From Eubacterium sp. (lineage in GTDB: Bacteria; Bacillota; Clostridia; Lachnospirales; Lachnospiraceae), in NCBI GenBank assembly GCA_017459945.1, contig JAFUBZ010000021.1, positions 62,001-126,000 on the forward strand: 64,000 bases of DNA. Reading direction: 5' to 3'. The notes beneath the pieces were generated by a model, which was given only the letters and a program-made list of their open reading frames with translations, was not told where the DNA came from and did not search any database. The translations under genes and the position numbers were made by a program. Positions 25,050 to 40,744 of the stretch are shown here, one piece after another. Within the stretch, counting starts at the first letter, position 1. Every line of letters begins with the position of its first letter.

Positions 25050-25109
25050 ATATTCTCCTTTATGTGCAATCTGATCTGACGATGAGAGAACCTTTGTTAC
25101 AGTGTTGAT

Positions 25110-25240
25110 TCTGCTTTTTTCTTTCTCTCTGACGACCCGTCGTGACATCCTGTCTTTCCGATGCCTTTGGCCGTGGCAGCACCCGCCGAATCTTTCGATC
25201 ACTGCCAACCTCGTCAACCCGTCAGGGTCCTGGCGCTAAT
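25110..25240 (-). ncRNA. glmS ribozyme (riboswitch), in front of hexapeptide-nagB-glmM
   Basis: Self-cleaving RNA cofactored by glucosamine-6-P. On the minus strand the conserved core is plain: cleavage site A25237 | G25236 in TTAGCGCCAGGACC, then GACGAGG, a stem-loop with ATCGAA, and TTCGGCGGGTGC followed by a P4-like region. The 3' end (~25110) is approximate. It lies between the glmS stop (25351) and the start of the hexapeptide gene (25049), so it heads that operon; the 5' region of glmS itself (27220-27370) shows no such core. Cleavage would destabilise the hexapeptide-nagB-glmM transcript when glucosamine-6-P is high. Confidence 0.92.
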
Positions 25241-25281
25241 AGCTTCCTTTTCCTCCTTAAAAACAGGAACCTATTTTAAAA

Positions 25282-38529: not shown

Positions 38530-39630
38530 ATGAAAAAAATATTGCTTACAGGCGGTGGAACCGCCGGACATGTTACACCGAATATCGCACTGATCCCACA
38601 GTTGAAAGAAGCCGGCTATAAGATCTACTATGTCGGTTCTTATGAGGGAATTGAAAAAACACTGATCCAGGATATCGGCATCCCGTACGCCGGTATCTCT
38701 TCCGGAAAGCTGCGTCGCTATATCGATCTGAAAAACATGTCAGATCCCTTCCGGGTCTTAAAAGGATACGGACAGGCACGCCGTCTTCTGCGGAAGCTCA
38801 AACCCGACATTGTCTTTTCCAAAGGCGGCTATGTCAGCGTTCCCGTTGTGCTTGCCGCAAAGCATAAGCACATCCCCGTCATCATTCATGAGTCTGATCT
38901 GACTCCCGGGCTTGCCAATAAGATCGCCTTCCCGGCAGCTTCCTGGGTCTGCTGCAATTTCCCGGAAACGATTCCCTACCTTCCGGAAGGCCGTGCCATC
39001 TTATCCGGTTCTCCGATCCGGAAAGAGCTGTTTGAAGGAAGTCCTGCGCGCGCAAAAGAATTCACCGGACTGACAGGTAACAAGCCGACGCTGCTTGTGA
39101 TCGGCGGAAGTCTGGGCTCTGCGTTCTTAAACCAGACCGTCCGCAGTCTGCTTCCCGAACTTCTGGCACATTTCCAGATCATCCACCTTTGCGGAAAAGG
39201 GCATCTGGATCCGTCTCTTGACGGCACAGAAGGCTATCGCCAGTATGAATATCTCGGCAAAGAGCTCCCCGACGTGATGGCACTTTCAGAGATTGTGATT
39301 TCCCGTGCCGGTGCCAATTCGATCTGTGAGCTTTTAGCACTCCATAAACCAAATATCCTGATCCCGCTTTCAAAGGCAGCAAGCCGCGGTGACCAGATCC
39401 TGAACGCAAGATCTTTTGAAAAACAGGGCTTTAGTGTTGTGATCGAGGAAGATGAGATGACAGACGAAAAGCTCCTGACTGCGATCCGGTCTCTCTGGGA
39501 AAACAAACAGTCCTACATCGATGCGATGTCACAGAGCGCACAGCTTGATGCCATCTCAACGATCGTAGAACTGATTGAAAAAACAATCGGCACCGGCGAA
39601 GAAAAAGACGCCGGCACCGGGAACGCATAA
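38530..39630 (+). CDS. murG: UDP-N-acetylglucosamine transferase MurG
   Basis: 366 residues. Adds GlcNAc to lipid I to give lipid II at the inner face of the membrane. GT-B fold with the N-terminal loop LLTGGGTAGHVTPNIAL, IIHESDLTPGLANK, the second domain VIGGSLGSAFLNQ and the sugar-nucleotide site VISRAGANSICELLAL. Full length. It is alone, away from other mur/fts genes, which is common in Clostridia; divergent from pgi. Followed by the palindromic elements at 39664-40199. Confidence 0.95.
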   Translation: MKKILLTGGGTAGHVTPNIALIPQLKEAGYKIYYVGSYEGIEKTLIQDIGIPYAGISSGKLRRYIDLKNMSDPFRVLKGYGQARRLLRKLKPDIVFSKGGYVSVPVVLAAKHKHIPVIIHESDLTPGLANKIAFPAASWVCCNFPETIPYLPEGRAILSGSPIRKELFEGSPARAKEFTGLTGNKPTLLVIGGSLGSAFLNQTVRSLLPELLAHFQIIHLCGKGHLDPSLDGTEGYRQYEYLGKELPDVMALSEIVISRAGANSICELLALHKPNILIPLSKAASRGDQILNARSFEKQGFSVVIEEDEMTDEKLLTAIRSLWENKQSYIDAMSQSAQLDAISTIVELIEKTIGTGEEKDAGTGNA

Positions 39631-39663
39631 GAACAACTTATACTTTTTGAGAATACTAATATA

Positions 39664-39901
39664 GCGTCATTCTCAACCATGTTTATTTTTCAAGTCTCCT
39701 GCGCAGAGTGTTTTTGATAAGCTGTTCACATTCTCCAAAGGGTACCGCTTTATTCGACGAGTTCTTTGATAACAACTCGTCTCATCACGCTTCAGAATTT
39801 GTGTCGGATCACAAATTCTGCCCCTTTTCCGAATTTGACACCTTACCAAAACACTAACTGCTCGTCGCAAAAGAAAAACAAACATGGCTGAGAATTGACG
39901 C
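39664..39901 (+). repeat. Large palindromic three-way-junction element A
   Basis: Long outer stem: GCGTCATTCTCAACCATG... (from 39664) pairs with ...CATGGCTGAGAATTGACGC (to 39901), about 28 bp with few mismatches and further imperfect pairing inwards. Inside are two perfect hairpins: GACGAGTT/AACTCGTC (39756-39781) and CAGAATTTGTG/CACAAATTCTG (39793-39820). No ORF. Its inner right flank (CCCCTT...ACACTAACTGCTCGTC) resembles element B in reverse. Together A and B fill the 593-base gap 39631-40223. Either a non-autonomous mobile element or a structured RNA. Confidence 0.72.
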
Positions 39902-39941
39902 TTTAATTATTATCTTCAAAAAACATTATTGTCTTTGTATG

Positions 39942-40199
39942 AAAAAATACCACAACAGATTGCTGTATCATTGCTTTTCACGTAGCGAGAGCATTAGTGT
40001 TTCCGCAAGGTTACACGGCTTCTAAGGGGGCAATATTTATTATCCGCTATAAATATTGGACGAATAGGAGTGGTGTTTTTATCAAAAAACACCAACGACT
40101 ATGAGACGTACCCCTTAGAAACCGCAGAAAACTTGTTTGGAAACACTTTGCAAACGGCAAGTGAAAACAATGTGCAGCAACTGTGTGGTATCTTATTTT
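39942..40199 (-). repeat. Large palindromic three-way-junction element B (inverted relative to A)
   Basis: Outer stem: AATACCACAACAGATTGCTG... (from about 39945) pairs with ...GCAGCAACTGTGTGGTATC (to about 40192), continuing inwards through CATTGCTTTTCAC and CTTCTAAGGGG / CCCCTTAGAA. Two perfect inner hairpins: CAATATTTAT/ATAAATATTG (40031-40058) and GGTGTTTTT/AAAAACACC (40072-40093). On the minus strand the order of conserved bits (GGGGTAC, hairpin, hairpin, CCCCTT, ACACTAATGCTCTCG) matches element A. No ORF. Confidence 0.72.
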
Positions 40200-40223
40200 A
40201 GCAATAGCAAAAAAGTATATTTT

Positions 40224-40643
40224 TTAATCGAGCTTCAACGCCGTCTGCACGGCGTCAAGTTCCGCATCGGAAGGCGATGTTGGATTCCATACAAAGCGAT
40301 CCATATTGGCATCGCCTTTATAACGCGGGATCAGGTGCATATGAAAATGGAAGACCGTCTGCCCGGCGATCTCGCCGTTGTTCTGAACGACATTAAAACC
40401 GTCGCAGCCAAGCTTTTCTGTCATATGCGTCGCCATCTTCTTTGCCAGGATCAATGCCTTCCCGGCCGTCTCTTCAGGCAGTTCATAAAGATTTGCCGCA
40501 TGATCCTTTGGAACTATGAGCGCATGCCCTTTTGTCGCCGGTGCCGCATCCAGGAAGACACGGAACGTATCGTCTTCATAGATCGAACGTGTCGGAATAT
40601 CTCCGTTTGCCAGTTTACAGAAAATACAATTGTCATCTTTCAT
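40224..40643 (-). CDS. HIT family (histidine triad) nucleotide hydrolase, HinT-like
   Basis: 139 residues from ATG 40641-40643 (MKDDNCIFCKLANG) with AGGAGG 9 bases upstream. Purine nucleoside phosphoramidase fold with zinc-type CIFC start and the histidine triad HFHMHLIPR near residue 100. Ubiquitous HinT-like protein. Promoter: TATAAT (40729-40734) with TTTGCT 17 bases further up, inside the end of the FHA gene. Confidence 0.93.
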   Translation of the reverse strand: MKDDNCIFCKLANGDIPTRSIYEDDTFRVFLDAAPATKGHALIVPKDHAANLYELPEETAGKALILAKKMATHMTEKLGCDGFNVVQNNGEIAGQTVFHFHMHLIPRYKGDANMDRFVWNPTSPSDAELDAVQTALKLD

Positions 40644-40744
40644 CGCTTCCATCCTCCTGTTGCTTCCTCTACAGATTACGCATCAGTTCTCTCCACATAT
40701 TTCTAAAACATTTGGAACTGCTATCTGAATTATACCAAAATCTT

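Follow-up and report, generated by a model that had tools for sequence, protein, structure and literature searches.

Inverted three-way-junction modules between convergent genes point to a probable family of foldback, modular mobile DNA in Lachnospiraceae

The window analysed here, a stretch of 64,000 bp from a Lachnospiraceae genome (1.44 Mb assembly, ~64% complete), carries a murG-like gene (38530..39630, + strand) and, convergent to it, a HIT-family gene (40224..40652, − strand). Both were taken from the list of open reading frames and owe their names to a first-pass annotation of the sequence. The gap between them is filled almost entirely by a non-coding composite element of 581 bp (39639..40219, no strand assigned), which starts 8 bp after the murG-like gene and ends 4 bp from the stop-codon end of the HIT-family gene. 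The element contains two structured modules, A (39664..39901, + strand) and B (39942..40199, − strand), so that each is sense relative to its adjacent gene, and is bounded by terminal inverted repeats (TATACTTTTTGA.../...CAAAAAAGTATA), perfect over 10 bp (TATACTTTTT from 39639 and AAAAAGTATA to 40219). The left repeat, TATACTTTTTGAG (39639..39651, + strand), came from an inverted-repeat search of the window and has the family form TATRCTTTTTGAC in other copies; the right repeat (40207..40219, − strand; GCAAAAAAGTATA when read on the + strand) was identified by the same search and from other copies. The limits 39639..40219 recur in other copies, at empty sites and at inversion breakpoints. The first-pass annotation had placed A and B correctly to within a few bases and taken them as the full extent; both modules are present, and the real unit is larger. 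It had also reported no open reading frame, which agrees with our inspection by eye of the overlapping frames of at least 60 aa, none of which bears signs of coding.

Module A is made up of a long closing stem of 23 nt with 91% complementarity (39669-39691/39873-39895), imperfect as first described, around a three-way-junction core. Folded as RNA, A and B give z-scores of −9.0 and −9.9, respectively; for the complete unit of 581 bases, a DNA fold gives −12.8, with both ends paired to each other. A covariance model built from 19 B copies only finds A on the + strand, opposite to B, at 103.7 bits (E 8.7e-31). The two modules are therefore inverted, diverged homologues, as had been proposed from a few shared motifs. 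The conserved cores, delimited by matches to the core model R2, lie at 39726..39837 in A (+ strand, 106 bits; L001 1627-1738) and at 40014..40127 in B (− strand, 121.6 bits; L001 1915-2028). Each core holds two inner hairpins. In A, P2 (39756..39781, + strand) has TGAT in its loop and P3 (39793..39820, + strand) has a perfect 11-bp stem and the loop TCGGAT. In B, P2 (40071..40094, − strand) and P3 (40031..40058, − strand) both have perfect 10-bp stems, with TGAT and AGCGGATA, respectively, in the loop read on the − strand. All four hairpins had been called perfect, which is true except for P2 of A with its one C-C mismatch. Across the cores, the loops TGAT(G)A and (C)GGA(A/T)A are conserved together with parts of the junction, and the arms vary. 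Covariation was found at 28 of 66 pairs in A (12 copies) and at 21 of 77 in B (19 copies).

A cross-genus core model, built from A, B and two copies from another genus, scored 0.421 for covariation, compared with 0.155 for shuffled and at most 0.166 for slid alignments. It matched 15 of 397 Lachnospiraceae genomes in 12 genera, several of them with at least nine copies; among 392 genomes drawn across the order there were three with matches, all Lachnospiraceae. Hespellia MAGs and Faecalicatena faecalis are among the named hosts. A structure conserved over diverged sequence had been anticipated from the window and is borne out by covariation across these genera. Hits in Chryseobacterium and Erwinia are probably chance pattern matches, and two weak matches outside the genus (22 and 35 bp) were likewise read as chance. 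The phages, plasmids and viral contigs searched yielded no element, and Rfam gave no match at gathering or permissive thresholds. These Rfam searches also gave no support to TwoAYGGAY, an identity suggested by the loop sequence.

The family takes different forms in other hosts. In the Hespellia-type genomes G675 and G054, many copies of ~285 bp stand alone, and their arms are conserved, with 28 matches to the arms in G675. In genus g90 (L123, L135 and L146, ~1300-1850), inverted GGGGACGGTTC-type palindromes stand on either side of the cores; they end in TTTTTGACACA, which is similar at its end to the TTTTTGACAC element end of the window's genus. In G232 (L124, L137) and G044 (L129, L142), copies within one genome have very different long outer arms, each nearly perfectly self-complementary despite the differing sequence.

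A structured RNA that is read from one strand is expected to tolerate G-U pairs and to reject A-C. Among 62 distinct cores, 1668 of the 1765 pair cells were Watson-Crick, 23 were G-U and 24 were A-C. As an RNA control we used relatives, from the same bacterial family, of a glmS ribozyme that lies in the window itself (25074-25248, − strand; RF00234, 63 bits). Aligned to its Rfam model, this control, a small one of a single RNA family and five full sequences, gave 139 Watson-Crick, 23 G-U and 1 A-C among 178 cells. The G-U share is thus 1.3% in the cores versus 13% in glmS. The cores differed from glmS in G-U fraction (p 4e-13) and in G-U:A-C ratio (p 5e-5), values to be read with the mutual non-independence of base-pair cells in mind. 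A tRNA control had too few cells, and a first control made with MAFFT and RNAalifold was dropped for its poor alignment. Full-length modules (37 G-U and 18 A-C of 1461 cells in B; 8 and 15 of 789 in A) agree with DNA-level pairing, though less cleanly than the cores. Since G-U is as rare as A-C, unlike in glmS, we conclude that folding is maintained at the DNA level rather than as RNA. Such pairing could arise either because folded DNA is recognised, as single strand or cruciform, or because the arms are homogenised by template switching. Loop orientation is preserved, none of 62 loops being inverted.

Three genomes of the window's genus have ~30 copies in all; DNA searches gave 14 matches each for the window's genome and one sister species. 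Where B is part of a two-module composite, it takes the right-hand place, and the left one is taken by A, C or D. Truncated or otherwise arranged copies occur at L011, L020 and L052, and a diverged D-A pair (L010, L031, L054) bears different ends, CAAATTCCTGTTTGTAGAT. C and D were considered as homologues of A and B and rejected as such, there being no detectable match. Module C is flanked on both sides by its own repeats, so composites may form through joining at these ends. At L043 (~1470-1950), a C relative and a diverged C-like module form another inverted pair of structured modules, with similar sequence at a contig end in L088. In the sister species G002, several contigs start or stop inside module C (L016/L037, L040, L042), from which it follows that the C repeats break this assembly.

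The same chromosomal sites are occupied differently in related species. The murG-HIT site carries A+B in the window, only C in L033, and C plus a fragment of B in L020; at another orthologous site, C in L038 corresponds to C+B in L024. Empty sites are present in sister species, as the first-pass annotation had suggested checking. A clean TA target was seen at two of them only (L006/L087 and L052/L078/L079), and the remaining empty sites are more diverged. When neighbouring genes were estimated from the longest ORFs, at least 17 of the 30 loci fell between convergent genes, and many lay no more than 10 bp from stop codons; the estimate places the left gene of L033 wrongly, and the corrected count would be 18 of 30. 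Either insertion tolerance or co-option as a terminator would give this setting. The family shows several traits of MITEs, namely short dispersed non-coding copies, terminal inverted repeats, insertion polymorphism and target duplication, and the early suggestion of paired non-autonomous mobile elements is upheld by the copies, ends, empty sites, module swaps and the TA target at the two clean sites.

In addition, the element as a whole is found in both orientations. Relative to aligned flanks it is inverted in four orthologous pairs from two species (L002/L021, L005/L028, L007/L029 and L011/L015), and in the pair L008/L025 its orientation is the same in both. One inverted pair is 97-99% identical. 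In three of them the two B modules are each other's best match (92.3% for L002/L021, 95.8% for L005/L028 and 98.8% for L007/L029), indicating that the resident element flipped rather than that a second copy inserted. The breakpoints fall within the terminal repeats, and since assembly k-mers exceed these repeats (10-13 bp) in length, assembly error is unlikely to lie behind the flips. Between species, the four pairs share one trait of invertons, a segment bounded by inverted repeats and found in both orientations. The possibility raised at the outset of recombination or attachment sites is supported in part, to the extent that whole elements from sister species are inverted at the terminal repeats.

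Several candidates for a mobilising enzyme were considered. The IS630-type DDE_3 transposase, searched with PF13358, just one model of the IS630 superfamily, was absent from all 11 carrier genomes, and an IS630 transposase was rejected as the mover on this ground. RAYT was rejected because many carriers have it, yet without cores nearby; none of 17 Y1 gene loci had a core match in its vicinity. In the sister species G001, the sole Y1 transposase match (L180 1261-1863, − strand), a RAYT-like gene of 200 aa, sits between its own, unrelated GGTGCCAGGCACC-type palindromes, and this gene with its GGTGCCAGGCACC palindromes is a separate REP system. No copy carrying an open reading frame between ends of the present type was found in 1.99 Mb of G001 or among the G675 and G054 matches. 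A search of G001 for paired ends returned nothing but non-coding elements (259-549 bp); pairs farther apart look fortuitous, and end-like sites on their own were not above a reversed-sequence control (98 versus 162).

Taken together, we regard it as probable that the element belongs to a non-autonomous, foldback, MITE-like and modular family of mobile DNA, found so far in Lachnospiraceae, and that it is mobilised by an enzyme supplied in trans. The observed basis for this consists of the copies, the terminal repeats, the empty sites, the exchange of the left module (A, C, D), the inversion and the Watson-Crick-only helices; the family is undescribed in the literature and databases searched. 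Its unit is a long imperfect DNA hairpin with a conserved three-way-junction core. The enzyme would recognise the folded single strand or cruciform together with the conserved loops, cut at the TA/TATRCTTTTTG ends, insert the element into short AT-rich gaps beside stop codons and be able to re-join it in either orientation. Inverted homologous modules and pairing ends would bring both element ends together, and a side effect might be that transcription of both convergent neighbours is terminated. Against this proposal stand the searches through IS630, Y1 and ORF-bearing copies, which linked no enzyme to the element, and the restriction of clean TA duplications to two sites.

A possible but doubtful alternative is that replication template switching, with no dedicated enzyme, homogenised the arms and inverted the whole spacer at the terminal repeats. 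Both effects are known for template switching at short inverted repeats (PMC8604942). The process can also yield Watson-Crick-only arms and inversions, which weighs against the enzyme proposal; the pairing of the element ends in the DNA fold and the equal rarity of G-U and A-C would fit it as well. However, the spacers in PMC8604942 are a few bases long, versus ~480-540 bp here between imperfect repeats of 10-13 bp. Moreover, with their perfect stems and short loops, the inner hairpins would be expected to flip much more frequently than the entire element, but none of 62 loops is inverted, unless selection keeps them. Insertion at empty sites and module exchange are also left unexplained. From the unflipped loops and the short published spacers, we thus favour a trans-acting enzyme that works on the folded DNA and its ends, template switching being a contributing process.

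It is unlikely that these are formerly mobile elements retained as bidirectional terminators, whose hairpins and T-runs would end transcription from both sides. Similar co-option has been proposed for the pneumococcal SPRITE repeats (PMC3049150), and elements often begin no more than 10 bp from one or both flanking stop codons, but a terminator scan returned a single terminator-like site, near chance level, and many sites in sister species are without the element. Least probable is a three-way-junction non-coding RNA or 3'UTR element, sense in both convergent mRNAs, one of the early suggestions: strong covariation, conserved loops, low folding energy, the sense orientation of the window modules and the frequent convergent setting speak for it, and against it are the missing Rfam match, a core G-U share equal to that of A-C as opposed to 23:1 in glmS, an orientation to genes that flips between species and the commonness of empty sites.

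Returning to a mobile DNA family, comparison with known systems shows partial likeness to several. ERIC, RUP and Correia are MITEs derived from IS630/Tc1-mariner elements with a TA target. The present element shares the TA target at its clean sites, the short terminal inverted repeats and the non-coding content, but it differs in the absence of DDE_3 from the 11 carriers, a far larger folded interior and whole-element inversion. Integron attC sites keep a conserved single-stranded DNA fold with little sequence conservation in the arms. The conserved fold with varying arms may be seen as analogous, unlike the size, the three-way junction and the lack of a cassette gene. BIMEs are intergenic mosaics of inverted palindromic units, and REP goes with the RAYT transposase. 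The palindromes around the RAYT-like gene of G001 differ from the element, whose units are ~240-260 bp with a three-way junction, compared with 20-40 bp for REPs (PMC3733652). BIMEs are also mentioned in PMC3049150, along with the pneumococcal repeats BOX, RUP and SPRITE. These too are small and non-coding, have terminal repeats and fold strongly; BOX shares the modular build, and SPRITE sits close to gene 3' ends. Their host is a different one, and the element is set apart from them by its facing homologous modules, left-module exchange, inversion and Watson-Crick-only pairing. Finally, invertons are phase-variable segments flipped by site-specific recombinases (PMC5903667). A short segment between inverted repeats in both orientations is common to both, whereas no internal promoter or gene was found in the element, its ends are those of a mobile element and its flips are known between species.

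A functional RNA is usually considered proven by covariation. In the present family covariation is strong over 12 genera, yet the pairing is strand-symmetric and G-U-avoiding and so points to DNA, and counting G-U against A-C offers a simple test that separates structured-RNA candidates from DNA-folding elements. By analogy with the integron integrase and its use of attC hairpins, we would tentatively entertain a family-wide system in which an enzyme reads the junction and its conserved loops in single-stranded or cruciform DNA and inserts, flips and swaps modules between convergent genes. The flips, swaps and empty sites at one locus across sister species are natural experiments on the movement and inversion of large foldable DNA in gut bacteria; part of the family can be put to the test in a cultured host, Faecalicatena faecalis.
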